NCBI GenBank assembly: GCA_017507805.1
Contig: JAFWAC010000024.1
Location: forward strand, 96,146 to 160,145
Length of the DNA stretch: 64,000 nt
From: Clostridia bacterium
GTDB taxonomy: Bacteria > Bacillota > Clostridia > Oscillospirales > Acutalibacteraceae
Reading direction: 5' to 3'
The notes beneath the pieces were generated by a model, which was not told the origin of the DNA, searched no databases, and worked only from the letters and a program-made list of their open reading frames with translations. Each line of letters begins with the position of its first letter. Position 1 is the first letter of the stretch. The position numbers and the translations under genes are program-made. Below, one piece after another: positions 19 through 61,595 of this stretch.

Positions 19-2739
19 TTGAAACGGCTGATAGCGGTTATCGCAGTAATACTTATAACGGTTGGTTCTGTTGTGCCGATTTCTGTATGTGCCACTTCGG
101 CAGAGGAAAATTTTCACCGTATCGGTGAAAACAGCAGTTTTTCCTCCGGGATTACGGTTGCTAATGAAGGTGAATATACCGTAAGACTTAAATATAAATG
201 TGATTTAAACAGCAGTGCAGACCCTGTAATTGGTTTGCTGATAGACGGAGTATATCCGTTTGAGGGGGCGGAAAAAATCACACTTGACCGTGGGTGGAAG
301 GATAACGCTGAACAGCGTTATGACATACAGGGAAATGAAATCCGCCCTTCGCAGTTGCAGGCAGATGTTATTTTCGAAAAAATATTGAAGGATAATAGTG
401 TTGCTTCGGATGATGTATACCTTTTTGAGCTTAATTCGGGTATTCACAAGGTTACTGTTATAACATACGAGCAACCGATAGAGCTTTATTCGGTAGAGTT
501 GGTTGAGTTTGAAAATTTGCCTGAATACAGCAAAGCGGTAGAGCAATACCGCGCATTGGGAGCAAAGGAAATACTTGATGTAAATCCGATTTTAATTCAG
601 GCAGAAAAACCGTCTTTAAAGTCGGCGCAGTCCTTGCTTTCGGTTAATGACCGCGCTTCAAGTATTACTCAGCCCTATGATGCGGTTAAGGCACGCTATA
701 ATTGTATTGGGGGAGGCCGTTGGTCAGAAAACGGTCAATGGCTTGAATGGGAAATAAATATTCCGCAAACGGGACTTTATCCGATAGCATTGCGTTGGAA
801 GCAGGACCAAAAGAATAACGATATTTCTTCAAGAGCAATTTATATTGACGGTGAAATTCCTTTTAAAGAAGCGGCAACCCTCGAATTTCCCTATAGCAAC
901 AAATGGCAGGTTTCTTTTATAGGCGAAAAGGAAACAGAGGGCGGTTATTTGTTTTATCTTACAGAGGGTAAACACACACTGCGTTTAGAGGCGACAATAG
1001 GCCGCCAGAAGGAGCTTATAGCCGATATGCAGCGGATTATAGGGCAGGCTAATCAGCTTTATCTTGATATTGTTATGGTTACGGGTCCATCACCGGATAT
1101 TAACCGTGATTACGATTATGAAAAGCTTATTCCTGATACCTTGAAGGAAATGCTTCAGGTGAGTAAGGAGCTTAAAGGGCTTGAGGCTGAGGTGATTACA
1201 CTTTCAGGCGAAAGCGGTCAAAATACCTCATCTATAAAACGGCTTTACGGTGTTATTGATAAAATGACAGAGGACAGTGAGACTATATCGCGCCGTTTAG
1301 GTGATTTTCAGGATGCGATTTCCTCTTTAGCCGTTTCCCTTACTGATATGCGTTCTCAGCCGCTTACGGTTGATTATCTGACCTTGGGCGCAAAGAAAAA
1401 CCAACTCAAGGCGGAGGGCAGTTTTTTCGCTCAGCTTATTCATTATATTAAGCAGTATATCGGTTCCTTTGCGGTGGATTACAACACCCTCGGAAACACG
1501 AAAGAATCGGATGCAGATGCGCTAAGAGTATGGCTTGGCGCGGATACCACTGTAATAGCAGCCTCGGCGGGCGGAACAGCCGGTAGAGATCAATCGCAGA
1601 TAGTGCGTGAGCTTGTGACTGATGATTTCTCATCAAATACAGGTATTCCCGTGAGTGTTCAGCTTGTAAATACAGGCTCGCTTTTGCCGGCAACCCTTGC
1701 AGGTATAGGTCCGGATGTTGCTTTGGGGCTTGCTCAAGCTACACCGGTAAATTATGCTTTGCGTAATGCACTTTATAATTTGAGTGAATTTGAGGATTGT
1801 GCCGAGATTTTAAACGGCTTTAATGACGCGGCAGTATTACCCTTTACTTTAGATGGTTCGGTATATGCTATACCGGAGACTATGGTTTATCCTATGCTTT
1901 TTTACCGCAGCGATATACTTTCAGAATGCGGTGTGGAATTAGATGAGCTGGAAACCTGGGACAGTCTTTTGCAGGTGGCATTGCCAAAGCTTCAAATGAA
2001 ATATCTGGAGTTTGGAGTGCCAGCTACATATAACACTTTTTCTACGCTTTTACTGCAAAATGGCGGAGCAATGTATAACGAGGAGCATACTGCTTCTGCC
2101 TTTAATTCAACACAGGGAATGGCGGCTTTTAAGCTTATGACCTCGCTTTATACAGAATACCGCCTTGATTTGAGCTTTAACTTCCTCAATCGCTTCAGAA
2201 GCGGTCAAATGCCTCTTGCAATACAGGATTATACAATGTATAACCAGATTTCCGTGTATGCTCCTGAAATTGAAGGGCTTTGGGGAATGCTTCCGGTTTG
2301 CGGAATAAAGGATGCGGCAGGTCAGGTTAATCGTACCGTTGCAGGTACTATGACCGGCTGCGGAATTACCTCGTATTCCAAGCTTAAAGAGGAGGCTTGG
2401 GAGTTTGTAAAGTGGTGGACAAAGGCGGAAACCCAAATTGAATTTTCTCAGGCGCTCGAAGCGGTGTTGGGTACTGCTGCGCGTAATCCTACCGCAAATC
2501 TTGAGGCACGCGAAAGCCTTGCGTGGAGCAGTGATATAAAGGATGCATTAAGGATGCAGGAGGCTTCACTTTCCTGTATCCCCGAAATTGCCGGTGGGTA
2601 TTACAGCTCCAGAAATTATGATTTCGCATTCAGAGATGTTGTGTATGAGGGTAAAGATATTAAGGCAACCCTTAACTCTGCGGCTGAAAGCATTGATACT
2701 GAAATAGCAGAAAAAAGGAATGAATTTTACGGTGAATAA
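19..2739 (+). CDS. Large extracellular solute-binding protein with N-terminal carbohydrate-binding-like modules
   Basis: Probable sugar-capture component of an ABC importer, exported and held at the cell surface. A hydrophobic signal segment covers residues 1-25, with no proper lipobox cysteine. Residues about 30-165 and 200-350 look like two beta-sandwich carbohydrate-binding modules; both contain an IDG(E/V)xPF-type motif. A helical stretch follows (about 350-490). Residues about 505-890 resemble a family 1 solute-binding protein (WLGADTTV, TGIPVSVQLV, GPDVALGLA, MLFYRSDIL, ETWDSLLQ). At 906 residues it is about twice the usual length. TTG start, with AGGGAG at 4-9 about nine bases upstream. 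It sits directly ahead of a permease pair and is paralogous to the protein at 50612. The operon probably begins upstream of the window. The binding-protein call is firm; the substrate is unknown. Confidence 0.85.
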   Translation: MKRLIAVIAVILITVGSVVPISVCATSAEENFHRIGENSSFSSGITVANEGEYTVRLKYKCDLNSSADPVIGLLIDGVYPFEGAEKITLDRGWKDNAEQRYDIQGNEIRPSQLQADVIFEKILKDNSVASDDVYLFELNSGIHKVTVITYEQPIELYSVELVEFENLPEYSKAVEQYRALGAKEILDVNPILIQAEKPSLKSAQSLLSVNDRASSITQPYDAVKARYNCIGGGRWSENGQWLEWEINIPQTGLYPIALRWKQDQKNNDISSRAIYIDGEIPFKEAATLEFPYSNKWQVSFIGEKETEGGYLFYLTEGKHTLRLEATIGRQKELIADMQRIIGQANQLYLDIVMVTGPSPDINRDYDYEKLIPDTLKEMLQVSKELKGLEAEVITLSGESGQNTSSIKRLYGVIDKMTEDSETISRRLGDFQDAISSLAVSLTDMRSQPLTVDYLTLGAKKNQLKAEGSFFAQLIHYIKQYIGSFAVDYNTLGNTKESDADALRVWLGADTTVIAASAGGTAGRDQSQIVRELVTDDFSSNTGIPVSVQLVNTGSLLPATLAGIGPDVALGLAQATPVNYALRNALYNLSEFEDCAEILNGFNDAAVLPFTLDGSVYAIPETMVYPMLFYRSDILSECGVELDELETWDSLLQVALPKLQMKYLEFGVPATYNTFSTLLLQNGGAMYNEEHTASAFNSTQGMAAFKLMTSLYTEYRLDLSFNFLNRFRSGQMPLAIQDYTMYNQISVYAPEIEGLWGMLPVCGIKDAAGQVNRTVAGTMTGCGITSYSKLKEEAWEFVKWWTKAETQIEFSQALEAVLGTAARNPTANLEARESLAWSSDIKDALRMQEASLSCIPEIAGGYYSSRNYDFAFRDVVYEGKDIKATLNSAAESIDTEIAEKRNEFYGE

Positions 2740-2750
2740 GGGGTGAAACA

Positions 2751-3641
2751 GTGAAGGTTAGAGGATTTTTCAGAAAATACGGCGAGGATTATCTGTTTGC
2801 ATTACCGTATATGTTGCTTTTTACGGTTTTCACTGTTTTACCGGTTTTAATTTCGGTAGTTTTAAGCTTTAGTTATTTTAATGTGCTTGAATCACCTGAA
2901 TTTATCGGACTTGGCAATTATACTAAGATGTTTGTAAATGACAATCTCACGGTTAAAGCCTTTTCAAATACAGTTATTATTGCTATGATTGTAGGCCCCG
3001 GAGGATATTTGCTTAGCATTGCTCTTGCGTGGATTATAAGTGAATTTCCGCGCGGACTTCGTTCTGTGCTGACCTTGCTTTTGTATGCTCCGTCCATTTC
3101 GGGAAGTGCATATATGATATGGCAGATTATTTACAGCGGTGACCAATACGGTTGGCTTAACGGAATTTTAATGTCTCTTAATTTGATTTATGAACCGATA
3201 CAATGGCTTACCGATACAAGCTATATGATGGTTGCGGCTATAATAGCAATTTTGTGGACCAGCTTAGGCACCGGCTTTTTATCCTTCATAGCAGGCTTTC
3301 AGTCTATGGACAGAAAGCTTTTCGAAGCGGCTGCCGTGGACGGAATTAAAAACCGTTTTCAGGAGCTTTGGTATATCACACTTCCGTCTATCAGACCGCA
3401 GCTTATGTTTGGCGCGGTTATGTCCATTACCGCATCATTCGGTGTGGGTGATATTATAAATGGTCTTTTCGGATTTCCAAGTACCAATTATGCACTTTAT
3501 ACCGTTGTTCATATGCTTCAGGATTATGGCTCCACAAGGTTTGAGATGGGTTATGCGTCTGCTATAGCGACCGTTTTGTTCCTGTTAATGATAATCATTA
3601 ATAAGGTAGTCCAAAAAGTTTTATCAAAGGTGGGGGAATAG
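2751..3641 (+). CDS. Sugar ABC transporter permease (UgpA/MalF-like)
   Basis: Inner-membrane channel subunit of a CUT1-type carbohydrate ABC importer. Six hydrophobic segments are visible in 296 residues, the usual length. The EAA loop that docks the ATPase lies near residues 192-212 (EAAAVDG then LPSIRPQL). GTG start with AAGGGGTGA just upstream; the gap from the preceding gene is 11 bases. It pairs with the permease at 3644, presumably with the binding protein at 19 supplying substrate. No ATPase gene lies in the window, so a shared MsmK/MsmX-type ATPase elsewhere is inferred. Closest relative in the window is the permease at 53504, with the same position in its cassette and motifs such as SLGTGFLSFIAG versus SFGSGFLSFIAG. 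Confidence 0.93.
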   Translation: MKVRGFFRKYGEDYLFALPYMLLFTVFTVLPVLISVVLSFSYFNVLESPEFIGLGNYTKMFVNDNLTVKAFSNTVIIAMIVGPGGYLLSIALAWIISEFPRGLRSVLTLLLYAPSISGSAYMIWQIIYSGDQYGWLNGILMSLNLIYEPIQWLTDTSYMMVAAIIAILWTSLGTGFLSFIAGFQSMDRKLFEAAAVDGIKNRFQELWYITLPSIRPQLMFGAVMSITASFGVGDIINGLFGFPSTNYALYTVVHMLQDYGSTRFEMGYASAIATVLFLLMIIINKVVQKVLSKVGE

Positions 3642-3643
3642 GT

Positions 3644-4516: not shown

Positions 4517-4532
4517 CGAAAGGATGGGAAAT

Positions 4533-6614
4533 TTGATCAAAAAATTATCTTGCATTTTGCTTGCTTTTATGTTACTCAGCCTTTGCGTGTTCACCGCCGC
4601 TGCTTCGGTTGATGTCAGTGACGGTATTGCTTATAATTCTTATACATACGATAACGATTTTGAGCCTGTTGCCATACCTGCACCCTTTACCGCTGTGCGT
4701 GAGGTTAGCGGAGGTGTTGTCGGAGCTTCAAATTTTTTATCGCCTGCCGATATATGCTATTCATCGGAAAGCGGATATATTTATATTGCCGATTCGGGTA
4801 ACAACGCTGTTGTTGTGCTTGATAGCAATTATAACCATGTTATAACACTTTCTGTTTTTGACAACGGCGGCAAAAGCGATTCATTAATATCACCCTCAAG
4901 TATGTCAGAGCGTGACGGTAAGCTTTATGTTGCCGATACAGGTAACAGCAGAATTGTTTGTTTCAATGTATCTGATTTCAGTCTTTTGAAAATATACCCA
5001 AAGCCCGTAATTTCACAGCTCGGGGAATATAGCTATAAACCTACCAGACTTTGTGTTGATATGGCAGGCAGAATATATGTTGTGGCACAAGGTATCAATA
5101 AAGGACTGTTGTTGCTTAATGAGGAGGGCATTTTCCAGGCGTTTCTGGGTGCTCCCGATGTTGTTGTGGATTTTTGGGACGGTCTTTGGAAAAAAATATT
5201 GGGAAAAGAACAGCGAAGCGGACTTTTGAGCGCTGTACCGACAGAATATAACAGTGTTTCAATAGATGAAAAGGGCTTTCTTTATGCCACAACACAATCT
5301 CAGGATGTGGAACCGATAGTGAAGCTTAATTCACAGGGCGAAAATGTTTTATATTACACAGATAACTATTATCCTAATGCAGACGGTTGGTACACTAAGG
5401 CAAAAATACAACCATTTGTTGTGGATATGACACAGGATGACAAGGGTAACTATTTTTTGCTCGACAGTAAAACAGGTAGAATATACGGCTATGATGTGCA
5501 AGGAAATATGCTCTACGCCTTCAGCGGTATCGGTCGGCAGATAGGCACCTCTTATTCTCCGTGTGCCATTGAATATATTGACGGAAAGCTTATAGTGTTA
5601 GACGGTTTTTACGGCACCTTCACTATATATGAGCGCACAGAATTTGGTAATGATATTTATCTTGCAAGCTCTTATATGGAAATGGGCGACTATGAGCAGG
5701 CAGAAATTTATTGGAATAATGTATACCGCACAGTTCCTGCTTATATACCTGCCTGTATAGGCATTGGCAGAATTGCTACATATAACGGGGAATATACCGA
5801 GGCTTTGTCAATGCTGGAATATACCCAAAGCAAGGACTACTATTCCGAGGCTTTCGTTCTTTTCAGAAAGACAGTAATGCAGCAACAATTTGATACTGTT
5901 GTAATTGTGCTGACAATTATCGGGGTTGCTGCAGTTGCCATTATGGTTCTGCAAAGAAAAAAGAAAATTTTCTCTGCTGTTTTAAACAATAAATTAATTT
6001 CCGATTACAGGTATGCTTCTTATTGCTGTTTTCATCCCTTTGACGGTTTTTGGGATTTGAAGCGCGAAAAGAGAGGAAATTTGCGTACCGCAAATATACT
6101 TTTTCTTTTGTTTACAGTTCTGTGTGCTTTGCGAATCCAAATGTCGGGATTTTTATTCTCCAACGGTAATAACGGAGATATAAATGTCATCGTTGAGCTT
6201 CTTAAGGTATTGCTTCCTCTCATACTTTGGTGTATTTCCAATTGGTGCTTTACTACCTTGATGGACGGTGAGGGAAGCTTTAAGGATATTTATATCGCTT
6301 TATGCTATTCCTTAAAGCCGTATATTACGGCGGCGGTACCGTTGCTGTTGCTTTCACATTTTTTAACTGCCGAGGAAGCATTTATATATACCACCCTTGA
6401 CCAAATTGTTTGGATATGGGTGATAGCACTTATATTTTTAAGTATGGTTACAACACACGATTATTCGATGTCTAAGGGTGTTTTAACGGCAATTCTTTCT
6501 TTGGTCGGAGTTGCGCTGATGATATTTATAGGCATTGTATTTTCAAATATGGTTGAGGATTTTATTGAGTTTGCAGGCGATATTTATCGTGAGCTTATGT
6601 ATCGGTTTTATTGA
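4533..6614 (+). CDS. NHL-repeat / TPR / Yip1-like membrane protein
   Basis: Multi-domain membrane protein of unknown function. After a signal segment, residues about 60-370 form an NHL-type beta-propeller (repeated YIADSGNNAV, LYVADTGNSRIV and GRIYGYD patterns). Residues about 375-440 look like one or two TPR helices (YMEMGDYEQAEIYW, YNGEYTEALSML). A transmembrane helix lies near 455-475. Residues about 500-690 form a multi-pass region resembling the Yip1 family. I chose the TTG at 4533 because AAAGGA (4519-4524) is correctly spaced to it. An in-frame ATG at 4524 overlaps that site. The gene sits between the permease pair and the DUF5696 gene and has a paralogue of like architecture at 55351. 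A role in sensing or organising the transporter is only a guess. Confidence 0.75.
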   Translation: MIKKLSCILLAFMLLSLCVFTAAASVDVSDGIAYNSYTYDNDFEPVAIPAPFTAVREVSGGVVGASNFLSPADICYSSESGYIYIADSGNNAVVVLDSNYNHVITLSVFDNGGKSDSLISPSSMSERDGKLYVADTGNSRIVCFNVSDFSLLKIYPKPVISQLGEYSYKPTRLCVDMAGRIYVVAQGINKGLLLLNEEGIFQAFLGAPDVVVDFWDGLWKKILGKEQRSGLLSAVPTEYNSVSIDEKGFLYATTQSQDVEPIVKLNSQGENVLYYTDNYYPNADGWYTKAKIQPFVVDMTQDDKGNYFLLDSKTGRIYGYDVQGNMLYAFSGIGRQIGTSYSPCAIEYIDGKLIVLDGFYGTFTIYERTEFGNDIYLASSYMEMGDYEQAEIYWNNVYRTVPAYIPACIGIGRIATYNGEYTEALSMLEYTQSKDYYSEAFVLFRKTVMQQQFDTVVIVLTIIGVAAVAIMVLQRKKKIFSAVLNNKLISDYRYASYCCFHPFDGFWDLKREKRGNLRTANILFLLFTVLCALRIQMSGFLFSNGNNGDINVIVELLKVLLPLILWCISNWCFTTLMDGEGSFKDIYIALCYSLKPYITAAVPLLLLSHFLTAEEAFIYTTLDQIVWIWVIALIFLSMVTTHDYSMSKGVLTAILSLVGVALMIFIGIVFSNMVEDFIEFAGDIYRELMYRFY

Positions 6615-6625
6615 GGTGGGGAATT

Positions 6626-9175
6626 ATGAAAAATATTAAAATATTCTTTGCTCCGCTTTGTACCGTACTTGCACTTTGCTGTTTTATAAGCGGTTGCGGA
6701 TTGAAGGCTTCTAACCCCATTAAGCAAACCGTTTCTGAGAATGGCATTAAATGGTCACAAGCAACGGATTCTGTTTTGCTTGAAAATGACCGTATTGCAT
6801 TCCGACTTGATGCTTCTACATCCCATTTCAAAGTCAGGGATAAGCTTATGGGTGTGGAATATATTTCCGTACCCGACAGCTGTGCGGAGCTTGATGAAAC
6901 ATATTCATCGGTATCAAGTGAAATAGCCGTTAAATATTATGAAAGCACCTCAGGAACCACAAATTATATTTATTCGGGTATAAACAGTGTGGATTACGGC
7001 GCTTTTAAGGTAGAGGCTGCCGATAATGCAGTGCGTGTTACATATACTCTGCGTTTTACAGAGCAGGCGGTTCTGGCACCGGTGGTATTAACCGAGGAAC
7101 GCTTTGAAGAATTGCTTGAAAATATGGAAGCTTCGCATCAGCGCAAGATGAGGCTTTACTATAAAAAGTATTCGCCCGAAAAAAAGACCGAAAAATATAA
7201 GGAATACCTGAAGCAGTACGATTATCTTGAAAAAAATGCTCTTTATATTTTCAAAACCAATGCTACCGAGCTTGATAAAATTGAGGTTTCGGAATATGTG
7301 CTTGGCGCAGGATACAGCGACAGTAGATATGTTGAGGATCTGGAACAGATAGGTGTTGAAAATGAGGATATTGATTTGCCGCTTTCCTATGTGATTCCTG
7401 TTGAATATCGGTTGGAGCCTGACGGCTTTACTGCTGAAATTCGCACGGATTTGATACAAATCGGAAACCCAAGGTATGAAATCAATGAAATCCTACTTTT
7501 GCCTTGGCTTGGCACGGCTCAAAAATCAAGCGGGGGATTTGCTGTTTTACCGGATGGTAGCGGCGCGGTTGTAAATTTTGACTGTGCTGACGATGCGGTT
7601 TACAGCAACCGCTTCTTCGGCAGTGATCCTGCAAAGGATTCTGAGGCTTCTTCAAAGCTGATACAAAACTCCTGTATGAATATGGCGGCTGCAAATTTCG
7701 GCACAGGCTCGTTTCTGGCTGTTGTCGAGAGCTGTGCTGCACAAGGCTCATATAATTTAAAAAGACAGGGTAAGGGAAATTATCAGGATAGTGTGTATAT
7801 GTCGTTTGAGGTGTATAACTCTGATGAAACACCTATACGGCGCGAGAAATCTCTGTTTCTTGTATCGGATGTTGCAGTTTCGGAAAATCCGTCTGTACGG
7901 TATATATTGTTAGGAAAGACATCGCCTTGGGAAATCGGAACGGCATATAAAAATTATCTTATAAGCAAGGGCGTTCTTGCGAAAGAAAAGACCTCGGAAT
8001 ATCCTATCTATCTTGAGTTTACAGGGTATATCACGGTTCCCGCCTCATTCCTTGGTATTCCTTATGAAAAAAAGGTTACACTTTCCACTCTTAAGGATAT
8101 AACAGACTATGTTGAACGCCTTAGCGCCCAAGGTATTAAAAATATTGTTATCCGCTTGAAAAACTTTGGTTTCGGTGGGGAAAAGCATAAAATTCAAAAT
8201 AAGTTTTCACTTTATTCGGGGGTTGGTACTGCAGATGAGCTTGTTGCATTGTCGAAGCTTCTGAATGGATTAGGCGGAAAATTGTATCTTGAAAATGATT
8301 GCTCGGTTATATACAGAGATACATTATTTGACGGATTTTATACCTTTAAAAATACCGCAAGACAGCTTGATAACACAATAGCAACAAAGCACAGCTTTAA
8401 TCTTGTGACCGGAGAAAAGGACAACGACGAGCTTTCCGGTTACTATGTTGCCCCTGCGTACTACAAAACAGTCGCAACCGGTTTTGCAGGCTCTGCATTG
8501 GAGAAGTTCGGAGCTGACAGCTTTGGAATTTCACTTAGCTTCGCCGGCAAGACAGTTATATCCGATTTTTCTGACACGCATATATCTGACCGTTGTGCAA
8601 CGGTAGGCTATATTAAAAATACGGTGTCAGCAGTAAACGAGCTTGTACCCGGTGTTATGACCGATGTGGGCAACATATATGCATTGGGACTTGCAGAGCA
8701 TATTTTGAATATGCCGCTTTCATCTTCAATGCTTAATATACAAAGCTATTCTTTGCCTGTTTATCAAATGGCTGTTCGTTCTTATATTGATTATGCCGGA
8801 AATGCAATAAATATTAACGCTGACCCTATAAGGGAGTATTTGCGCAGTGCCGCTGTCGGTGGCAGCCTTTATTACTCCTTTATCACTCGCACAGATGCAT
8901 TGCTTGAGGTGGGTGCAGGTCAAAAGGCATATCCGGGCGGTTGCAATGAATATTTTGATACGCTGGTTAAACAATATGGCAAAATGTATAGCTTAAACAA
9001 GGCGGTCTCGGGTGCGGAAATTGCTGAATACCGACCTTTGAGCGAAAATGTTTTTATCACAGCTTATGATAGCGGTGTCAGTGTGATCACTAATTTTTCG
9101 GATGGTGCATTTCAATATAAAGGACAGACGGTAAATGCTTATGAGTTTATCTGTGAGGAGGGGGAAATCAGTTGA
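6626..9175 (+). CDS. DUF5696-type lipoprotein
   Basis: Exported lipoprotein of unknown function, about 849 residues. A lipobox (ISGC) ends the signal peptide near residue 25. The middle carries a motif (LPDGSGAVVNF, near residue 315) that is also in the paralogue at 57473 (IPDGSGALIDF). Both proteins then continue into a region with alternating strands and helices suggesting a TIM-barrel. I place it in the DUF5696 group from memory of that family's company with sugar ABC permeases; no search was run. ATG at 6626 follows GAGGTGGGG and is preferred over a TTG at 6611 that overlaps the previous stop. Its last bases overlap the next permease gene, so they are translated together. It might be a surface glycosidase or a binding partner; neither is shown. 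Confidence 0.75.
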   Translation: MKNIKIFFAPLCTVLALCCFISGCGLKASNPIKQTVSENGIKWSQATDSVLLENDRIAFRLDASTSHFKVRDKLMGVEYISVPDSCAELDETYSSVSSEIAVKYYESTSGTTNYIYSGINSVDYGAFKVEAADNAVRVTYTLRFTEQAVLAPVVLTEERFEELLENMEASHQRKMRLYYKKYSPEKKTEKYKEYLKQYDYLEKNALYIFKTNATELDKIEVSEYVLGAGYSDSRYVEDLEQIGVENEDIDLPLSYVIPVEYRLEPDGFTAEIRTDLIQIGNPRYEINEILLLPWLGTAQKSSGGFAVLPDGSGAVVNFDCADDAVYSNRFFGSDPAKDSEASSKLIQNSCMNMAAANFGTGSFLAVVESCAAQGSYNLKRQGKGNYQDSVYMSFEVYNSDETPIRREKSLFLVSDVAVSENPSVRYILLGKTSPWEIGTAYKNYLISKGVLAKEKTSEYPIYLEFTGYITVPASFLGIPYEKKVTLSTLKDITDYVERLSAQGIKNIVIRLKNFGFGGEKHKIQNKFSLYSGVGTADELVALSKLLNGLGGKLYLENDCSVIYRDTLFDGFYTFKNTARQLDNTIATKHSFNLVTGEKDNDELSGYYVAPAYYKTVATGFAGSALEKFGADSFGISLSFAGKTVISDFSDTHISDRCATVGYIKNTVSAVNELVPGVMTDVGNIYALGLAEHILNMPLSSSMLNIQSYSLPVYQMAVRSYIDYAGNAININADPIREYLRSAAVGGSLYYSFITRTDALLEVGAGQKAYPGGCNEYFDTLVKQYGKMYSLNKAVSGAEIAEYRPLSENVFITAYDSGVSVITNFSDGAFQYKGQTVNAYEFICEEGEIS

Positions 9176-10086: not shown

Positions 10087-10089
10087 ACT

Positions 10090-10974: not shown

Positions 10975-10995
10975 TAAAAAACGGAGGTTTTATTT

Positions 10996-12423: not shown

Positions 12424-12439
12424 CAGCACCGATTTAATC

Positions 12440-12487
12440 GAGTTTGATATGCAACGCTGAAAATTAGCAATTAGCAATATCAAACTC
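12440..12487 (+). terminator. Stem-loop after operon 1, possible weak terminator
   Basis: Perfect 11-bp inverted repeat, GAGTTTGATAT at 12440-12450 and ATATCAAACTC at 12477-12487, with a 26-base loop containing AATTAGC twice. No run of T follows directly, so Rho-independent termination is uncertain. A 16-bp AT palindrome follows at 12501-12516. The next promoter begins at 12530. Confidence 0.4.
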
Positions 12488-12529
12488 AAATTACAACACG
12501 ATTTTTTATAAAAAATGTCAATAAAAATC

Positions 12530-12558: not shown

Positions 12559-12564
12559 ATCTGT

Positions 12565-15461: not shown

Positions 15462-15501
15462 TACCAGATATAAATTCAAAATACAATTCGGGGTGAACCG
15501 A

Positions 15502-39547: not shown

Positions 39548-39602
39548 ATCATTCATCCTTTCAACAATATAATTTTACCATAAAGGATGTAAAAAAGCAA
39601 AG

Positions 39603-47304: not shown

Positions 47305-47330
47305 ATTCCGGATTCAAAGGAAGTGCTTAT

Positions 47331-50584: not shown

Positions 50585-50611
50585 CCCATTGGTTCCAAAT
50601 TAGGAGGCTAA

Positions 50612-53503
50612 ATGTTGAAAACATCTATAAGAAGATTAATTTCTGTATTGTTAATCATAACCATAAACACAGTTGTTTCTAACTGCTTCTTGGCGGTTTC
50701 GGCTGAAATAACCAAGGATAATAAAGAGACAGATGAAGTAGTTTCAAATAATACAGACAGTTATTTTTATTATTACGAAAAATATAAGGATGAGATGTAT
50801 TCTGCTACTGAGACTGTGCTGGAGGTAGGTGCAGCAGTGCCCTCAAATCCTATAGAAAATATAGATGATTTGCCTGCGGTAAGACTCGAGAGTGAAGATG
50901 ACAGTATTATATGGAGTGTTACCGTTCCACGAACGGGCAATTATATAGCGTATATAGATTATTATTCTCTTGACGGTATAAATGATACCGAAATATCCTT
51001 ACTTATTGATGGTGAGGTGCCTTTTAGCGAGGCTAAGGCTATGAGTCTGCCACGAATATGGAAGGATTCTGACGATATTGAAAATGGAAGCTTTAAAACC
51101 GACTTTTCGGGTAACGATTTAACACCCAGTCAGGAGGAGGTTAAGCGTTGGAATAGGGTTGCATTTTCCGATATGCTTGGTATGTATAGCCAACCCTATA
51201 TTTTTAATCTTGAAAAAGGTGAGCATACTGTAACCCTTAAAAATGCCAATATTCCTGTTGCGGTTTCCAAGGTGGTATTTGGAAATATGAAAGAAGTGCC
51301 TGCGTATAAGGAATATATTTCGCAATATTCGAACAGTGACCATGTTTCAGGTGAAAGCGTAAGACAGGAAGCAGAGCTTGCTTTTGAGAAAACCGATAGT
51401 TCACTTTCTCCCAAATACGACCGTTCTAATGGGGGCACTCTTCCTAACGACCCTGTGAAAATCCGTTTGAATACTATAGGAGGTTCAAGTTGGACGACCT
51501 GTGGGGATTCTATAAGCTGGCAGGTTGATGTGGAAAAGGAAGGACTTTATAGATTAGCCTTCAGGGTAAGGCAGAATTTCAGTGAAGGAATGAACTCATA
51601 CCGCCGTCTTTATGTCAATGGGGAAATCCCATTCAAAGAAGCAGAGAAGGTAAAATTTGAGTTTGATCCCGAGTGGTATATAAAGGTTGTCGGTGATGAT
51701 GAACCGTTGTACATCCATCTTAAAAAGGGAGATATTATAACCCTTGAGTGTACCTCGGGTCCTATGGATTATCCTTTGCGGGAAGTTCAGAAAGCGGTTC
51801 TCGACCTGAATGAAATCTACCGTGAAATTATAATGATAACCGGTGTGACCCCAAGTATGTATCAGGATTATGAACTTGATTCCCAGTTACCTGAACTTAC
51901 AGATGATTTGACGGCGGTGAGCAAAAGACTCAATCTTGCGGCAGATGCTATAACCAAAGAAATGGGTAAATCTTCGACAGGTGTTGCCACAATTTTGAAG
52001 GCTGTAAAGATTATTGACGAATTAGCAGAGGACCCCTTCTATATTCCTGACAGACTAAGTAATTTTAAAACAAATATTGAGAGTTTGTCATCGCTGTTGC
52101 TAACTCTCGGCGGTCAGGCAGTAGAACTTGATAGTATTCATTATATTCCTAAAGGAGCAGAAATACCCGAAGCAAGTATAGGCCTTTTCGCAAATCTTTC
52201 TTACAAATTTAAGCGTTTTATTGCAACCTTTTCAAATGACTATAACATTGTAAGTTCTGCAGGTGCGGATAGTGATAAAAGTATCCTTGTATGGGCAGAT
52301 TTAGGTCGTGATCAGGCACAAATTTTAAACCGACTGATTGAAGAAAATTTCACAACGAAGACCGAAATTCCTATTGTTCTTAATTTGGTTTCAGGTGCAT
52401 CAACTCTTATAAAAGCAGTTCTTGCAGGCAAGGGGCCTGATGTTGTTTTGCATATAGATGCGGTGACACCTGTAAATCTGGCAGCAAGGGGAGCGCTGGT
52501 TGATTTATCACAGTTTGATTTATCTGTCCTTCAGGCAGAAACTTATGATTCTGCTTGGACTACCTATAAGTATCAGGGCGGAATTTACGGTATTCCTGTA
52601 ACGCAGAACTGCGATATGCTTTTTTACAGAACGGATATTTTTGAATCTTTGGGTCTTAATCCTCCTGAAACCTGGAATGAATTCTATAATGTACTCGAAG
52701 TGCTCCAAAGTAAGAATTTGCAGGTAGGTCTCCCTGAAATTAATTCTGCCGATGCAGGAAACTCTTTGGCGATAAGCGTTTTCAGCACCTTACTTTTCCA
52801 AAATGGCGGAGATTACTTTACAGATGATCTTTCCAAAACTTTATTTGATACAGAGGTAGCAAATATAGCTTTTGAAAAAACGGTTGAGTTATATAGAGTT
52901 TATGGCATAACAAGAGAAATCAGTATCTTTAACCGTTTTAGAAGCGGTGAAGCGCCTCTTTCAATAAGTTCATATTCTTTCTACACTCAACTTACGGCAT
53001 CTGCCCCCGAAATTGCAGGGCTTTGGGATTTTACCTTAATTCCCGGAACTGTTAAAGAAGACGGTAGTGTCGAGCGCACTGAGAGCGCCACGGCATCAGG
53101 TAGCATAATGCTTACACGTGCTGTAGAACGCGGTGTTGAAAATGAAGCATTTGAGTTTATGAAATGGTGGGCAAGTGCTGAAACCCAGACAACTTATGGT
53201 AGGGCACTGGAAGGTATATTGGGTGTTATCGGAAGAATAACCCCTGCAAATTATGTGGCACTGGAAAACTTAGGTTGGTCTAAAAGTGAATTTAATAAAA
53301 TAAATACACAACTCAGTGTTTCTTATAATCAGGCAGCTGTTGTGGGTAATTATCAGATAACGAGGTCTCTTACAAGTGCAATCCGTTCGGCTATTAACGA
53401 TAAGAATTCACCTCGCCGTGCGTTGGCACTTTATAACAAGGATATAAATGACGAGATTTCCCGCAAACGTAAAGAATTTAATATAGGTAAGGAGGGGAAT
53501 TAA
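50612..53503 (+). CDS. Large extracellular solute-binding protein with N-terminal carbohydrate-binding-like modules
   Basis: Paralogue of the protein at 19, 963 residues, same plan. It has a signal segment (1-30), two binding-like modules (about 55-215 and 245-400, each with a DGEVPF/NGEIPF motif) and a helical stretch about 405-540. A family 1 solute-binding region runs about 550-945 (VWADLGRDQAQI, EIPIVLNLVSG, GPDVVLHIDAVTPVN, DMLFYRTDIFE, FNRFRSGEAPLS). The same phrases occur at the same places in the first copy (DQSQIVREL, FNRFRSGQMPL). ATG at 50612 or the adjacent TTG at 50615; AGGAGG at 50602. It begins the second copy of the seven-gene cassette and feeds the permeases immediately downstream. 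Confidence 0.85.
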   Translation: MLKTSIRRLISVLLIITINTVVSNCFLAVSAEITKDNKETDEVVSNNTDSYFYYYEKYKDEMYSATETVLEVGAAVPSNPIENIDDLPAVRLESEDDSIIWSVTVPRTGNYIAYIDYYSLDGINDTEISLLIDGEVPFSEAKAMSLPRIWKDSDDIENGSFKTDFSGNDLTPSQEEVKRWNRVAFSDMLGMYSQPYIFNLEKGEHTVTLKNANIPVAVSKVVFGNMKEVPAYKEYISQYSNSDHVSGESVRQEAELAFEKTDSSLSPKYDRSNGGTLPNDPVKIRLNTIGGSSWTTCGDSISWQVDVEKEGLYRLAFRVRQNFSEGMNSYRRLYVNGEIPFKEAEKVKFEFDPEWYIKVVGDDEPLYIHLKKGDIITLECTSGPMDYPLREVQKAVLDLNEIYREIIMITGVTPSMYQDYELDSQLPELTDDLTAVSKRLNLAADAITKEMGKSSTGVATILKAVKIIDELAEDPFYIPDRLSNFKTNIESLSSLLLTLGGQAVELDSIHYIPKGAEIPEASIGLFANLSYKFKRFIATFSNDYNIVSSAGADSDKSILVWADLGRDQAQILNRLIEENFTTKTEIPIVLNLVSGASTLIKAVLAGKGPDVVLHIDAVTPVNLAARGALVDLSQFDLSVLQAETYDSAWTTYKYQGGIYGIPVTQNCDMLFYRTDIFESLGLNPPETWNEFYNVLEVLQSKNLQVGLPEINSADAGNSLAISVFSTLLFQNGGDYFTDDLSKTLFDTEVANIAFEKTVELYRVYGITREISIFNRFRSGEAPLSISSYSFYTQLTASAPEIAGLWDFTLIPGTVKEDGSVERTESATASGSIMLTRAVERGVENEAFEFMKWWASAETQTTYGRALEGILGVIGRITPANYVALENLGWSKSEFNKINTQLSVSYNQAAVVGNYQITRSLTSAIRSAINDKNSPRRALALYNKDINDEISRKRKEFNIGKEGN

Positions 53504-54409: not shown

Positions 54410-54437
54410 TAACAATCTTTTATTAGGTGATAATGTA

Positions 54438-55340: not shown

Positions 55341-55350
55341 GAGGACTTTG

Positions 55351-57459
55351 ATGAAAAAAATAATAACAGTAGTTTTAACAGTTCTTCTGGTTTTCTCCAC
55401 CTTTAGTATCCAAGCCTTTGCAAAGGAGGTTACTTATGCTCCTTATGAAGGGTACGAATATAACGATTATAACGAATCGGTTGCAGCTCCTATAGGCTAT
55501 ATAATGGATGGTAATTTTAATAGCGACGCTATGGGCTTGGAAGTTGAGATAAAAGAACCGTCTGATATTTTATTTGACGGTGAGGATGCCGTATATATTC
55601 TTGATAGCGGTAACGGTAGAATATTGGAACTTACAACAACCTTCAGGGTAGTAAAAATCTATGATGAGTTTTTAACCGAGTTGGGAGATATCAAAAAAAT
55701 CAAAGGTGCTCAAGGGTTATCTTTGAGCCTTGATAAAAGTTGTTTTTATATTGCCAACACTCAGCAATGTGAGGTTTTAAAGGTTCGTAGGAGCGACAGC
55801 AGGGTTTTACAATGCATAACAAAGCCTGAAGACCTTGACATAAATACCAACGCTGATTTCGCTGCAACTAAGGTTACAGTTGATAATAAAGGACAGGTAT
55901 ACGTCCTTGTCAAAAGTATAAATGTGGGTGCTTTTGTATTTGATGCTGACGGTGAATTTTTAAAATTTTTTGGTTCAAACCCAATAGTTGCAACAGCAGA
56001 AACCCTCAGAAATTATCTTTTGAAGCGTTTTATGACTAAAGAACAAAGAAAAGGTCTTACGAGGATAACTCCTACAGCTTTCAGCAATTTCGATGTGGAT
56101 GAATATGGTTTTCTCTATACTGTAAGCGAGGATACAAGCCTTGTGTCTAAAGAGGGAACAGTAAGAAGACTTAATTATTCGGGAAATGATATTTTAAAGT
56201 CGGGTCTTGTTTTCGGAGATTTAGAGTGGGACCGCCTTTATGGAACGGTATCTAAATATACTTCATTTATTGACATTGATATTGATGAGGACGGTTATAT
56301 TAACCTGCTTGATAAAGGAAGGGGAAAGGTTTTTCAGTATACTACCGACGGCAAAATGACCGCTGTGTTCGGCTCATACAATGATTTGAACGGTAGTTTT
56401 AAAAATCCCGTCGCAATAGAAACAATAGGAACAGAAATATATGTGCTGGATGCAGGAAGTAATACGGTAATATCCTTTAAGCCTACTGATTATACTACTA
56501 CTCTCCGTAGTGCCTTTTCGCTTTTACAGTCAACCGATACCAAGGCTTCAAAAGAAGTCTGGACAGAAATTCTGAAAATGAATACAAACAGTCAATATGC
56601 TTATTACGGTTTAGGGACTGTTGCTGACCAAGAAGGCAATTACACCGAGGCTATGAAAAATTTCAAACTTGCGGGTGCTCATCAGGAGTATTCAAAGTCG
56701 CTTAGAGAATACCGTAAAGAATTTATAAGCGATAATTATATTTTAATTATTCTGGCTTTGGTTGTTATTGCGGTGTTGGTAATTATTTTAGTGCGGATTA
56801 TAAAGAAAAAATCGGTTCTGGTTCACGGCACTGCCTATTCGGCAATGGAAACCAAAGCTTTGTTTCCTGTGTATACCTCACTCCATCCGGCAGATGGCTT
56901 CGGTCAATTCAGAATAAGAGATGTGATGTCGGTAAGAGCTACTCTGATTATTGTTGTTTCTTGGTTTTTAATAAAAACCCTCGCATTTTTTAATACGGGT
57001 TTTGCATTCAACAATAACCGTGCAATAGATTACAGCTTTTTTACAACCCTATTTTTTACTGCGGGATTATTCATTCTTTTTGTTGTTTCAAACTGGTCCG
57101 TATGCACTTTGCTTAACGGTAAGGGTAACTTTAAGACCATAGTTGTAACTACGGCTTATTCCCTTATTCCTTATTTGCTTTGCGAAATTGTGAAAATAGG
57201 AATGTCAAATATACTAACTTTAGAGGAAAGCGCATTTATAGGTCTTGTGGGAATAATAGGACTTTTATGGAGCGGAATGATTCTGTTTATAGGTCTCTCC
57301 ACTATACATGAATATTCCTTTAAGGAAACGGTAGGCTCGGTGTTGTTGACAATTCTCTTTATGGCACTTATCTGCTTCCTTTTAATTCTCTTTTATACTT
57401 TGATACAGCAAACGGTTAATTTTGTCCGTTCTGCGATAGCGGAACTTTCACTAAGATAG
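55351..57459 (+). CDS. NHL-repeat / TPR / Yip1-like membrane protein
   Basis: Paralogue of the protein at 4533, about 702 residues. Signal peptide 1-25; NHL propeller about 60-375 (AVYILDSGNGRILEL, YIANTQQCEVLKV, IYVLDAGSNTVIS). TPR-like helices follow about 380-445 (AYYGLGTVADQEGNYTEAM). A transmembrane helix lies near 460-480. Residues about 510-695 form a multi-pass Yip1-like region, with the shared phrases SLHPADGF (FHPFDGF in the other copy) and SNWSVCTLLNGKGNFK (SNWCFTTLMDGEGSFK). Preservation of all parts in both copies argues for function. ATG 55351 follows GGAGG; a TTG at 55348 is also possible. Function unknown. Confidence 0.75.
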   Translation: MKKIITVVLTVLLVFSTFSIQAFAKEVTYAPYEGYEYNDYNESVAAPIGYIMDGNFNSDAMGLEVEIKEPSDILFDGEDAVYILDSGNGRILELTTTFRVVKIYDEFLTELGDIKKIKGAQGLSLSLDKSCFYIANTQQCEVLKVRRSDSRVLQCITKPEDLDINTNADFAATKVTVDNKGQVYVLVKSINVGAFVFDADGEFLKFFGSNPIVATAETLRNYLLKRFMTKEQRKGLTRITPTAFSNFDVDEYGFLYTVSEDTSLVSKEGTVRRLNYSGNDILKSGLVFGDLEWDRLYGTVSKYTSFIDIDIDEDGYINLLDKGRGKVFQYTTDGKMTAVFGSYNDLNGSFKNPVAIETIGTEIYVLDAGSNTVISFKPTDYTTTLRSAFSLLQSTDTKASKEVWTEILKMNTNSQYAYYGLGTVADQEGNYTEAMKNFKLAGAHQEYSKSLREYRKEFISDNYILIILALVVIAVLVIILVRIIKKKSVLVHGTAYSAMETKALFPVYTSLHPADGFGQFRIRDVMSVRATLIIVVSWFLIKTLAFFNTGFAFNNNRAIDYSFFTTLFFTAGLFILFVVSNWSVCTLLNGKGNFKTIVVTTAYSLIPYLLCEIVKIGMSNILTLEESAFIGLVGIIGLLWSGMILFIGLSTIHEYSFKETVGSVLLTILFMALICFLLILFYTLIQQTVNFVRSAIAELSLR

Positions 57460-57472
57460 GCAGGTGCAGTAA

Positions 57473-59725
57473 ATGAAATTGTTAATTAAGGTTTTGTGTT
57501 GCCTGCTTACGGTGATTACGGCTTTTTCTGTTATTACAGTAACTGCTAAGGCTCCTGAAACATTGGACATTGTTCCTGAGATTATGGGTGTTACGGATGA
57601 AACGGAAGACACCTATCTTATAAAATACGAAAAAATAACTGAAAATGATAACCTTATTCTTTATGCGGATACAAAGAGAGGACATTTTGCATTAAAGAAC
57701 AAGGCTACGGGTTATTTATGGTACAGTACACCTAACGATGTACTAACCGATGAAACAACTATAGGTCTTGAAAAATGGAACACCCATTCCCAAATAGTGG
57801 TTGAGTATGTTTATAAGGAAGATGTTTTGTCTGCCTCAGGTGTCAATACACTCAGCAGTCAGTTGGGGGTAGTAGAGAGTGGTAATGCTGAGGTTAAAAA
57901 GTCAGATAACGGAATAAGGGTGGATTATTTCTTTCAGGAAATTGACACCCTCATTCCAGTAGAATATTTCATAGATGGTGATGAATTCAGTGCCAGCATA
58001 AAACTTTCAGAAATAAAAGAAGGAAAAGAAATATATATAACTGCAATAAATCTGCTGCCTTATTTTGGGGCAGGTAACAGCAATGAATCGGGCAAACTAT
58101 TGATTCCCGATGGCAGCGGCGCACTCATAGACTTCAATAACGGAATCGAAACCTCTGTTTACAGAAAAATGATATACGGCGATAATGTTGATAGTGTTGC
58201 AGATGTTGATAATACCAAGTCTGAAGTTATAAGAATGCCGGTTTTTGCAGTTATTAAAGAAAATAATACCTTAATGGGTGTGATTACTAAGGGGGATTCC
58301 TCCGCTTCAATAAGAGCGGTAAACGGTAACGACAGCAGAAAGTATAATTGCGTAAGCAGTATTTGCGAGTTGCGTTCACTCCAGAAAATGGTGATGTTTA
58401 AAAATTCGAGTAATCGCCGAGAGATAGGAAGCATTACAAAATGGCCAGAAAATGCTGATTGTTTTGAGGTGACCTATAAGTTTTTAGACGGCGATAATGC
58501 AAACTATGTAGGTGTAGCGAAAGAATACCGTAATTATCTTATTGAGGAAAAGGGACTTACAAAAAGTGAAACAACGCCATCATTTTCACTGGATATTTAT
58601 GGCGCGATAGATGTTGAGGCGACTTTTTTAGGTGTGCAGTACTCGAAACTAAAGAGTCTTACAACTTTCAGTCAGGCTGAGGAAATTCTTGATGAACTGA
58701 AGGCTGAGGGTGTGGAAAATGTTTCGGTTAGATATTTGGGTTGGAGCAATTACGGACTCCTCAATAAAAAATTGCCTAAAAAGGCAAAAGCACTTTCAAA
58801 ATTGGGTGGCAACAGCGGTTTTAAAGAACTTTTGGATTATACCGCAGAAAATGACGGTATACTCTATGCCGATGTTGATTTATTGAGATTTAGATCAGGC
58901 TCCAAGAAAACTGTTGTTAAAAATATATTTAATGAGGTAGCAAAGCATACTGAAAGACTACGCTCGGTTTATGCTATGAAATTGAATATAGACCCATTTA
59001 TGTATCTTTCCCCCGATAAGATTTCCGAGGTTTCGGATAACTATTTAAAGTCGTTGAAGAAACAGGGGATTACAGATATTTCATTCTCTACACTAGGGAG
59101 TTATTGCTATTCAAATAATGGCAAGAAAAACACCTTCCACCGTTATTTCTTTGCGCTGGAGATTGAAAAAACTCTGAAAAACTATAAAGACAATGATTTT
59201 AACATAGCCCTTGATGATGCAAATGCTTATGCTGCTGTTTATGCAGACAGAATATATAATACACCGGTTCTTACCAGCGGTTGCAGTATATTTGATGAGG
59301 AAATTCCTTTTTATCAAATAGTATTACACGGATACACGGCTATGACTGTGGAGTCAACTACTGCGGCACAGGAGTATAAAGTGAATATACTCAAGGCTGT
59401 TGAGAGTGGAAGCGAACTTTTATATTCGGCAATGTATGAAGATTCTTCGGTGCTTACCAATACAAGATACGATTTGTATTACAGCACAAATTATAAACTC
59501 TGGATAGATGAGGCTTCCGAAATAGCCGTCCGTTATTATGATCTGCTTAGAAAGATACACGATAAGGAGATTGTTTCTCACAGAACATTGCAGGAAAATG
59601 TTTGTGAAACCGTATTCCAGAATGGTATCAAGGTCATAGTGAATTATAATGAAGATGCTGTTACCATTAACGGTAAGACTATAGAAGGTTTGAATTATAT
59701 TACAGAGGAAGGAGCAGAAGAATGA
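57473..59725 (+). CDS. DUF5696-type exported protein
   Basis: Paralogue of the lipoprotein at 6626, 750 residues, but with a plain signal peptide (1-26) and no lipobox. Conserved blocks include LLPYFGAG and IPDGSGALIDF (about 195-225), ATFLGVQYSKLKSLTTF matching ASFLGIPYEKKVTLSTL in the other copy, and RYLGWSNYG. The late part has barrel-like alternation with acidic residues at strand ends (LYADVDLL, IALDDANAY). It lacks the long charged helical insertion (about residues 160-220) of the first copy. Surface role close to the importer assumed. ATG start; the stop overlaps the next permease by four bases. Confidence 0.75.
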   Translation: MKLLIKVLCCLLTVITAFSVITVTAKAPETLDIVPEIMGVTDETEDTYLIKYEKITENDNLILYADTKRGHFALKNKATGYLWYSTPNDVLTDETTIGLEKWNTHSQIVVEYVYKEDVLSASGVNTLSSQLGVVESGNAEVKKSDNGIRVDYFFQEIDTLIPVEYFIDGDEFSASIKLSEIKEGKEIYITAINLLPYFGAGNSNESGKLLIPDGSGALIDFNNGIETSVYRKMIYGDNVDSVADVDNTKSEVIRMPVFAVIKENNTLMGVITKGDSSASIRAVNGNDSRKYNCVSSICELRSLQKMVMFKNSSNRREIGSITKWPENADCFEVTYKFLDGDNANYVGVAKEYRNYLIEEKGLTKSETTPSFSLDIYGAIDVEATFLGVQYSKLKSLTTFSQAEEILDELKAEGVENVSVRYLGWSNYGLLNKKLPKKAKALSKLGGNSGFKELLDYTAENDGILYADVDLLRFRSGSKKTVVKNIFNEVAKHTERLRSVYAMKLNIDPFMYLSPDKISEVSDNYLKSLKKQGITDISFSTLGSYCYSNNGKKNTFHRYFFALEIEKTLKNYKDNDFNIALDDANAYAAVYADRIYNTPVLTSGCSIFDEEIPFYQIVLHGYTAMTVESTTAAQEYKVNILKAVESGSELLYSAMYEDSSVLTNTRYDLYYSTNYKLWIDEASEIAVRYYDLLRKIHDKEIVSHRTLQENVCETVFQNGIKVIVNYNEDAVTINGKTIEGLNYITEEGAEE

Positions 59726-60633
59726 AAACAAAAAAGCAATTAGGTTTGACTACAAGGCTTTCCTGGACGGGATTTCTTTTTACTTTGCCATTTGTAATAG
59801 GTTTTGTATTATTCTTCTTGCGTCCTCTCTGGCAGTCTCTCACATTTGTATTCAGTAAGGTGGATATAACGCTTGACGGTTATATCACCACCTTCAACGG
59901 ACTTCAAAACATCAATTACATTTTTCGCGAGGATGCTACATATACAACAAATCTGATCGAAAGTCTTACAAATTTAATTTGGCAAGTACCCCTTATTGTT
60001 GTTTTTGCATTGTTCTTTGCTATTATTATGAATCAAAAATTCAGAGGAAGAGTGTTTGCCCGTGCAGTTTTCTTTCTACCTGTAATTATAGCGTCAGGTA
60101 TAATTTTAAACATTATTCAAAGCGATGCTGCGGCAAGCAGTATGCTTTCGGGTGAGGTGGTTTCAGGGGGCACCTCCTCTCAGAGTGATGCACTTAAAGA
60201 TTTGCTTGCAAATTCGGGAATGGATTCAAAGGTGATATCTGCAATTACGATGATAACCGATAACCTTTTTGATCTTACTTGGAAAACAGGAATACAGATG
60301 ATTCTGTTTTTAGGAGGACTTCAAGGAATTTCACCTTCCCTCTATGAGGCGGCAGAGGTTGAGGGGGCTACAGGCTGGGAGAGTTTCTGGAAAATAACAC
60401 TTCCTATGCTAATGCCTATTACCTCACTGAATGTGGTTTATACAATTATTGATAGTTTTACTGATGCTAATAACAAGGTTATGCTTCAGGTAATGAATAA
60501 TGCACAATTGGTGCGTTACGGTTGGAGTTCGGCAATGTCATGGTGCTATTTTTTACTTATTGCTGTTGTCCTTTCTTTGGTGTTCATTGTTTTTGCAAAA
60601 ATCCAGCGGTCAGGCGACCGTATCAAATACTGA
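59722..60633 (+). CDS. Sugar ABC transporter permease
   Basis: Membrane subunit of the second importer of this cassette, 303 residues. EAA loop YEAAEVEGATGWESFWKITL. It shares with the permease at 9172 the MNQKFRGRVFAR segment (LNQKFRGRIVAR) and a polar insertion of about 50 residues (near 130-180). ATGA overlap with the previous stop; GGAAGGAG upstream. Pairs with the permease at 60648; likely binding protein is the lipoprotein at 44223. Confidence 0.92.
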   Translation: MKTKKQLGLTTRLSWTGFLFTLPFVIGFVLFFLRPLWQSLTFVFSKVDITLDGYITTFNGLQNINYIFREDATYTTNLIESLTNLIWQVPLIVVFALFFAIIMNQKFRGRVFARAVFFLPVIIASGIILNIIQSDAAASSMLSGEVVSGGTSSQSDALKDLLANSGMDSKVISAITMITDNLFDLTWKTGIQMILFLGGLQGISPSLYEAAEVEGATGWESFWKITLPMLMPITSLNVVYTIIDSFTDANNKVMLQVMNNAQLVRYGWSSAMSWCYFLLIAVVLSLVFIVFAKIQRSGDRIKY

Positions 60634-60647
60634 CGGAGGTGTTTTAA

Positions 60648-61595
60648 TTGAAATTTTTAAAACAAAATCCAAAGGTATTGCGGGACAGGTCGGTTAAACT
60701 TTGTATAGATTTTCTAAGAACGGTGTTTATAATTACTCTTTCGTATCTTTTTGTTTATCCATTGCTTTTTATGGTCTGTACGGCTTTTCAGGATCCCACT
60801 TCTGTAAATGACCCAAGTGTAATACTGTTTCCTAAAAAATGGTCACTTGAAAGTGTTAAGGAAATGATAGAGGTTCTCAGATATTGGGACTCTGCATGGC
60901 TTACTCTTATCATAGCTGTTACAAGTACATTGGCATCTCTTGTTTCGTGTTCTTTGGTAGGATACGGACTTTCGAGATATAAGTTTAAGGGTCAGAATTT
61001 AATATTTATGCTGGTTGTACTCACAATTATTGTACCTCCGCAGACTATATTACCCTCCAAACTTCTTAATTTCCAATTCTTTGATTTTGGTGGTTTACTT
61101 TCCCTTATTCCGGGGAAACCGTCTGTAAATCTGCTTAATACTGTATGGACATTTGTGTTACCCTCGCTTTTTGCTACGGGTCTTCGCTCGGGACTTTTTA
61201 TCTACATATTCAAGCAGTTTTTCTCAGGTCTTCCCAAGGAACTTGAGGAGGCAGCAAGAATAGACGGTTGCAGTGCAATGCAGACCTATGTGAGAATTAT
61301 TATTCCTCTTGCAGTACCTGCATTTATAACTGTTACGCTTTTCTCGTTTATATGGCATTGGAATGATTTGTATTCATCTTCAATGTTCTTTACCAATGAT
61401 GTGAAGCCGCTTATGCCACTTCTTAACAGTCTTGATACCTTACTTGAGCGTTCATCAATAGGCTCAAGTGCTTATGTTGCAAGAACATATAAGGCTTCTG
61501 CTACTTTGCTTACTATTCTACCACCTTTGATTCTTTATATTTTTACACAGAAGTATTTCACGGAAAGTATAGAACGTTCAGGAATTGTTGGGTAA
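60648..61595 (+). CDS. Carbohydrate ABC transporter permease
   Basis: Partner membrane subunit, 315 residues. EAA loop EEAARIDGCSAMQTYVRIII; the segment FSFIWHWNDLYSSSMFF mirrors FSFCWHWTDTSFTSVYF in the paralogue at 10090. TTG start with GGAGGTG correctly spaced. Last gene of the duplicated seven-gene cassette; 13 bases ahead of the esterase gene. Confidence 0.92.
   Translation: MKFLKQNPKVLRDRSVKLCIDFLRTVFIITLSYLFVYPLLFMVCTAFQDPTSVNDPSVILFPKKWSLESVKEMIEVLRYWDSAWLTLIIAVTSTLASLVSCSLVGYGLSRYKFKGQNLIFMLVVLTIIVPPQTILPSKLLNFQFFDFGGLLSLIPGKPSVNLLNTVWTFVLPSLFATGLRSGLFIYIFKQFFSGLPKELEEAARIDGCSAMQTYVRIIIPLAVPAFITVTLFSFIWHWNDLYSSSMFFTNDVKPLMPLLNSLDTLLERSSIGSSAYVARTYKASATLLTILPPLILYIFTQKYFTESIERSGIVG

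Follow-up and report, generated by a model that had tools for sequence, protein, structure and literature searches.

Conserved cassettes of paired sugar importers with NHL/Yip1 and DUF5696 proteins, present in thirteen copies in a Clostridia genome

Results

A cassette inherited as one unit

The window analysed here is a stretch of 64,000 nucleotides from a Clostridia bacterium (contig JAFWAC010000024.1 of assembly GCA_017507805.1). It carries two cassettes, A (19-10974) and B (50612-61595), each encoding a large solute-binding protein (SBP1), two permeases (P1 and P2), a membrane protein with NHL, TPR and Yip1 regions (NHL/Yip1), a DUF5696 protein and two further permeases (P3 and P4), in this order and all on the + strand. 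The cassette genes form one conserved unit, inherited and diverging together. On balance, we favour the view that the products of each cassette work as a single machine by which the Gram-positive cell captures and imports glycans. An earlier note on this DNA had proposed one functional machine, and as a genetic unit this stands, given the conserved gene order, the association of NHL/Yip1 with the cassette and the common history of the parts; the physical assembly of the products into one complex, in contrast, is something that we infer.

Both seven-gene runs described in the earlier note are present, with adjacent genes separated by no more than 15 bases or slightly overlapping, as in an operon. 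SBP_bac, four BPD_transp_1, Yip1 and DUF5696 domains are found by Pfam in each copy, and all eight permeases exceed the BPD_transp_1 cut-off, identifying them as permeases of type I sugar ATP-binding cassette (ABC) importers. Pfam scans found no ATPase in cassettes A and B. Each gene pairs best by BLASTP with its positional counterpart, as had been claimed, at identities between 26% (NHL/Yip1 and DUF5696) and 46% (P1), with SBP1 at 32%, P2 at 45%, P3 at 34% and P4 at 35%. Copy A extends beyond the seven genes to a second, lipoprotein-type binding protein (SBP2), and a second binding protein also lies upstream of copy B (Table 1).

The window's own genome (2,340,196 bases in 36 contigs, 87.6% complete) contains 14 DUF5696 matches, 13 of them full length or nearly so, and every one of these 13 lies in a cassette with all parts, 11 in the canonical order. 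Hence the description of the cassette as duplicated is right in that the window holds two copies, but misleading, as these are two of 13 old paralogous cassettes. Together the cassettes account for 51 of the 59 permease-domain matches in the genome, and the one MalK-type (OB_MalK) ATPase detected lies on contig C15, where there are no permease matches. The fourteenth DUF5696 match is a genuine GH129 enzyme without a cassette (L026:9104-10957, minus strand), related to NagBb at E 1e-130 and keeping the YLDVF motif. The two rearranged cassettes have P3 and P4 before SBP1 (L017) and P1 behind P4 (L024).

The gene order is conserved in other Clostridia, where the earlier note had suggested looking for it, and in Bacilli too. 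Among named genomes, from which the best 80 of 417 DUF5696 relatives were kept, a set biased towards the window's DUF5696, all parts are present at 68 loci and canonically ordered at 67, and 11 of the 12 partial loci are cut by contig ends. These records include Paenibacillus, Cohnella, Evansella, Alkalihalobacillus, Ruminococcus, Lachnospiraceae and other Clostridia. Within the same family, 55 of the 64 matches of at least 230 bits outside the own genome were examined, the remainder lying in G055, G096, G104 (one each) and G059 (six). They comprise 29 full cassettes, eight partial ones, of which five are at contig ends and three have no recognisable P4, and 18 DUF5696 genes without a cassette. 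More broadly, DUF5696 exceeds its Pfam cut-off of 25.6 bits in 58/70 genomes of a genus sample, the richest having at least 15 matches, and in 26/299 of a phylum sample.

The NHL/Yip1 protein accompanies the cassette rather than DUF5696 as such. Its profile was searched in 38 genomes (the own genome and samples of 14 with cassettes, 13 with stand-alone DUF5696 and ten without DUF5696), with 30 of 32-41 first-look candidates scored in five of them. It matched in all 14 cassette genomes, each time adjoining DUF5696, and its matches in the own genome were exactly the 13 cassettes. One of the 13 stand-alone genomes (G080) gave a short match to the TPR part only, and none of the ten genomes without DUF5696 was matched.

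Stand-alone DUF5696 proteins form a group of their own, in that 17 of the 18 cluster at support 99 in the tree, with L176 adjoining; the latter is on a 4.1-kb contig, so its cassette-less status is undecided. The importer-less group (L146, L149, L151, L153-L157, L160, L164, L166-L169 and L172-L174) has an Asp at the nucleophile-equivalent column in 17/17 members. No constant partner was seen among ten neighbours scanned from eight of the 18 loci; a sigma factor (L155, L157) and a homoserine O-succinyltransferase (L160, L172) recur, and the others appear once each.

History of the copies

Cassettes A and B are not mutual closest relatives, contrary to what the earlier note's account of a duplication implied. 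Across the 13 own cassettes, A is nearest to the L019 cassette for every part, while, part by part, among the 12 other cassettes B is only between 4th and 10th nearest to A, and A between 6th and 11th nearest to B. A FastTree phylogeny of 138 DUF5696 and GH129 proteins places A with L148, from another genus, and L019, and places B with L034, on separate branches. In this tree, whose well-supported branches force at least eight label changes, the 13 own copies are dispersed; deep branching order was not used, as long-branch warnings applied to L173 with L174 and to GH129 with L024. In L034, a Clostridia metagenome-assembled genome (MAG) from goat rectum, all seven B parts are matched at 51-77%, making it the B ortholog. 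A simple recent duplication between A and B is consequently rejected. Distance matrices of the cassette parts correlate in 28/28 pairs across the 13 own cassettes. The tree scatter, the L034 ortholog and these correlated distances therefore indicate that the cassettes are old, and that each evolved as a unit.

Properties of the encoded proteins

The NHL/Yip1 proteins of A and B score 45.8 and 53.9 bits for Yip1 (PF04893), above the cut-off of 28.6, placing both in that family. The copy A protein also has a Pfam NHL match above the cut-off and a TPR_2 match below it; in copy B there is no Pfam NHL match, and the propeller is based on a weak NCBIfam match and the structure model. The predicted architecture is that of a beta-propeller and TPR region carried by one membrane helix, which connects to a Yip1 bundle with about five such helices. 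Pfam scans and the structure model revealed no intracellular signalling domain in the window's NHL/Yip1 proteins.

By predicted structure, from an AlphaFold2 model of B DUF5696 (pLDDT 91.0, pTM 0.90), DUF5696 has a GH129/GH101-type glycosidase fold. Of the two catalytic residues of the GH129 enzyme NagBb, one is presumably Glu478. The other is Asp435 (PMC8106489, PMC5698469). By alignment, in which the register is uncertain by one residue, acidic residues occupy both catalytic positions in only 15/114 cassette DUF5696 proteins, and neither window copy has an Asp at the nucleophile-equivalent position. The GH129 family model PF11308 gave no match up to E=1 in five DUF5696 proteins scanned; a scan of 20 relatives was also without a match, as were its controls, and is not used as evidence. 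Classification of DUF5696 as ordinary GH129 is rejected on the catalytic residues and this family model.

When the N-terminal regions of 20 SBP1 proteins are compared as a profile with known structures, they match CBM35-type regions of several enzymes; B SBP1 also has a Pfam CBM_35 match, below its cut-off. The helical part of SBP1 matches designed coiled coils by profile, and the C-terminal part matches sugar-binding proteins. By a crude regular-expression test, a lipobox is present in 15/112 SBP1 vs 69/77 SBP2 proteins, in 10/119 NHL proteins and in 11/18 stand-alone DUF5696 proteins.

Neighbouring genes

Enzymes near the cassettes vary from one cassette to another. The window has two GH13 enzymes, a melibiase-type protein, a GH20 and GDSL proteins, with an AraC-type regulator at 38618-39556, between A and B. 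Around the further 11 own cassettes, a subset of the flanks, amounting to 20 proteins, was scanned: a glycoside hydrolase or deacetylase lies beside eight loci (rhamnosidase, GH16 at three, GH38 with GH106, deacetylase, GH35 and GH2), and dockerin, GDSL or CE2-type proteins beside the remaining three. Neighbours in Bacilli include GH32 and a response regulator (L058, Paenibacillus castaneae), GH10 with GH43 (L074, Alkalihalobacillus trypoxylicola) and GH38 (L077).

Elsewhere in the window, a 217-aa protein with cohesin and dockerin (30940-31593), near the GH13 at 15493-20823 (dockerin match below cut-off), has the appearance of an adaptor within an amylosome-like complex. A 1472-aa protein without a Pfam match (39785-44203) lies just upstream of B SBP2. 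Two further proteins without a Pfam match (554 and 510 aa; 45640-48773) lie between B SBP2 and the GH20 gene, and their open reading frames overlap by 64 bases, so the start of the second is uncertain.

Table 1. Genes of cassettes A and B and their second binding proteins.
Feature	Coordinates	Strand	Remarks
A SBP1, large solute-binding protein	19..2739	+	N-terminal CBM35-like domains, helical region, C-terminal SBP domain; no lipobox
A permease P1	2751..3641	+	BPD_transp_1; 46% to B; UgpA/MalF-like via B counterpart
A permease P2	3644..4516	+	BPD_transp_1; 45% to B; UgpE/MalG-like via B counterpart
A NHL-TPR-transmembrane-Yip1 membrane protein	4524..6614	+	NHL and Yip1 above cut-off; hydrophobic segments
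A DUF5696 protein	6611..9175	+	375 bits; lipobox ISGC; no Asp at GH129 nucleophile-equivalent position
A permease P3	9172..10086	+	BPD_transp_1
A permease P4	10090..10974	+	BPD_transp_1
A SBP2, 475 aa	10996..12423	+	SBP_bac_1; lipobox VVGC
Probable B SBP2, 462 aa	44223..45611	+	SBP_bac_8; lipobox LTSC; 5 kb upstream of B SBP1
B SBP1	50612..53503	+	SBP_bac_1; CBM_35 match below cut-off
B permease P1	53504..54409	+	BPD_transp_1
B permease P2	54402..55340	+	BPD_transp_1
B NHL-TPR-transmembrane-Yip1 protein	55348..57459	+	
B DUF5696 protein, predicted GH129-type fold	57473..59725	+	556 bits; AlphaFold2 model
B permease P3	59722..60633	+	BPD_transp_1
B permease P4	60648..61595	+	BPD_transp_1

Discussion

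A model for glycan capture and import

The conserved unit can be read as a sequence of steps from capture to import. DUF5696 would be anchored to the outer face of the membrane, through a lipid or an N-terminal helix, and would act as a mostly non-hydrolysing glycan holder. The NHL-TPR part may provide a dock next to the permeases for the soluble SBP1, perhaps also for DUF5696; this role is proposed mainly because SBP1 usually is without the lipid anchor that a binding protein of a Gram-positive cell is expected to have. The Yip1 part might assemble with or gate P1P2 and P3P4, as YknW, the Yip1-family member of YknWXYZ of Bacillus, is reported to modulate the assembly of another ABC transporter (PMC4887032). 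P1P2 would then receive cargo from SBP1, and P3P4 from SBP2, with a single MsmX-type ATPase encoded elsewhere powering all copies, and the surrounding genes setting the substrate of each cassette. The suggestion in the earlier note that long or insoluble glycans are perhaps imported agrees with what the sequences and models suggest: CBM35-like domains in SBP1, a glycosidase fold in DUF5696 and changing carbohydrate-active neighbours. In its full form, the model is offered tentatively: a mostly non-catalytic glycosidase scaffold may serve as glycan receptor, with an NHL-TPR-Yip1 platform docking a non-lipidated CBM35-type binding protein and gating two paired importers, giving about thirteen glycan-specific machines on one shared ATPase, a Gram-positive counterpart of Sus.

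Several observations weigh against this model. An Asp is found in the nucleophile window in 45/114 cassette DUF5696 proteins, so some of them may be enzymes; among the Bacilli cassette proteins it is found in 20/25, with the second acidic residue too in only 2/25. A lipobox was detected in only 44/124 cassette DUF5696 proteins, and the regular-expression test is itself crude. SBP2 is near only 8/13 own, 48/80 named and 20/37 family cassettes. The named locus L043 is genuinely without the upstream half, and L162, L170 and L171 have P3 but no recognisable P4 despite several kb read downstream, L170 being cut upstream as well. The count of a single ATPase comes from a genome that is 88% complete, and two flanking proteins scanned beside the B ortholog in L034 had no Pfam match. 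Finally, YknWXYZ is a MacB-kind peptide exporter, in which Yip1 is a separate protein (PMC4887032).

Three other explanations have to be weighed. DUF5696 could be a working enzyme outside the cell, a glycosidase from an undescribed family of the GH101/GH129 clan, which would trim glycans once they are captured; the cassette would then be an importer pair with its own exo-enzyme. The clear GH129-type fold agrees with this, as do the nucleophile-window Asp in 18/18 stand-alone proteins and most of those from Bacilli, the nearby Asp at column 548 in 91/115 cassette proteins, and the precedent of the active DagB, whose homologs, GH129-like enzymes, keep only one of NagBb's two catalytic residues (PMC5698469). 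Nevertheless, we consider it rather unlikely: the nucleophile-window Asp is absent from both window copies and from 33/44 named Clostridia cassette copies, acidic residues at both positions are rare among cassette proteins, no more than 9/18 stand-alone proteins carry one in the acid/base position, and the sole invariant acidic residue in a 71-row alignment, D213, lies before the barrel in the model. We likewise regard as unlikely a sensory or regulatory, rather than structural, role of the NHL/TPR/Yip1 protein, in which it would read external glycan binding and signal or gate without tethering SBP1. An external propeller on a membrane bundle would be common to both readings, but the signalling domain such a sensor might use inside the cell was not found in the window's NHL/Yip1 proteins, and regulators of other types, AraC-type in the window and a response regulator in L058, are near some cassettes.

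It is highly improbable that the cassette instead consists of two ordinary importers with two accessory genes unrelated to them, kept side by side by nothing more than linkage or a recent tandem duplication. Gram-positive sugar loci do often group transporters with enzymes (PMC10318527). However, Paenibacillus and Ruminococcus relatives share the gene order, their DUF5696 proteins being about 30% identical to the window's, NHL/Yip1 is confined to the cassette in the tested genomes apart from the short TPR match in G080, and the copies are old. A cassette that is conserved in Paenibacillus as well as in rumen and gut Clostridia, and that reaches 13 copies in a 2.3-Mb genome, is likely to be a major route of complex-glycan uptake. 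If the capture-and-import model is true, both DUF5696 and a bacterial Yip1 protein acquire a function, with a glycosidase fold mostly in non-catalytic use. The neighbouring enzymes provide substrate predictions copy by copy.

Comparison with known systems

No published description of the cassette was found in the open-access literature searched. In that literature, no paper names DUF5696, and no description was found of DUF5696, NHL, Yip1 and ABC parts in combination, of NHL and Yip1 with a permease, of Yip1 with Paenibacillus ABC operons, of NHL repeats with ABC permeases, or of a GH129 pseudoenzyme. A beta-mannoside locus (PMC4264767), considered as a possible description, is a different cluster.

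Individual parts do have known relatives. The multitask ATPase MsmX serves type I sugar ABC importers (PMC7658222), and the cassette is similar in having BPD_transp_1 permeases and a candidate ATPase that is encoded apart and apparently shared, but differs in its additional NHL/Yip1 and DUF5696 parts and in pairing importers within a fixed operon. Compared with GH129 NagBb and GH129-like DagB, DUF5696 shows 15% identity, with the catalytic residues mostly missing (PMC8106489, PMC5698469). YknW is likewise a membrane protein of the Yip1 family in bacteria and is linked with an ABC transporter, a likeness by family name; NHL, DUF5696 and a binding protein are not named in the available part of that description (PMC4887032).

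Gram-positive polysaccharide utilisation loci (gpPULs), such as the mixed-linkage glucan locus of Blautia producta, place a sugar ABC importer with its binding protein beside carbohydrate-active enzymes and a regulator (PMC10318527). The Blautia producta locus has one importer and, according to that study, lacks the type of surface glycan-binding protein known from Bacteroides (PMC10318527). The window shares general features of gpPULs, having transporters, enzymes (GH13, GH20, melibiase) and, between A and B, the AraC-type regulator, but the cassette differs in its fixed core, in which permeases in two pairs are joined by an SBP1 of CBM35 type, an NHL/Yip1 membrane protein and a protein with the GH129 fold. 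In the SusC/SusD systems of Bacteroidota, glycan-binding surface proteins are coupled to import. No SusC/SusD or TonB-type match was found among 34 window proteins scanned, and the cassette would resemble these systems by an analogous idea only, that of combining surface glycan capture with import. If true, the capture-and-import model would explain how Gram-positive bacteria hand over captured polysaccharide fragments to importers without SusCD.

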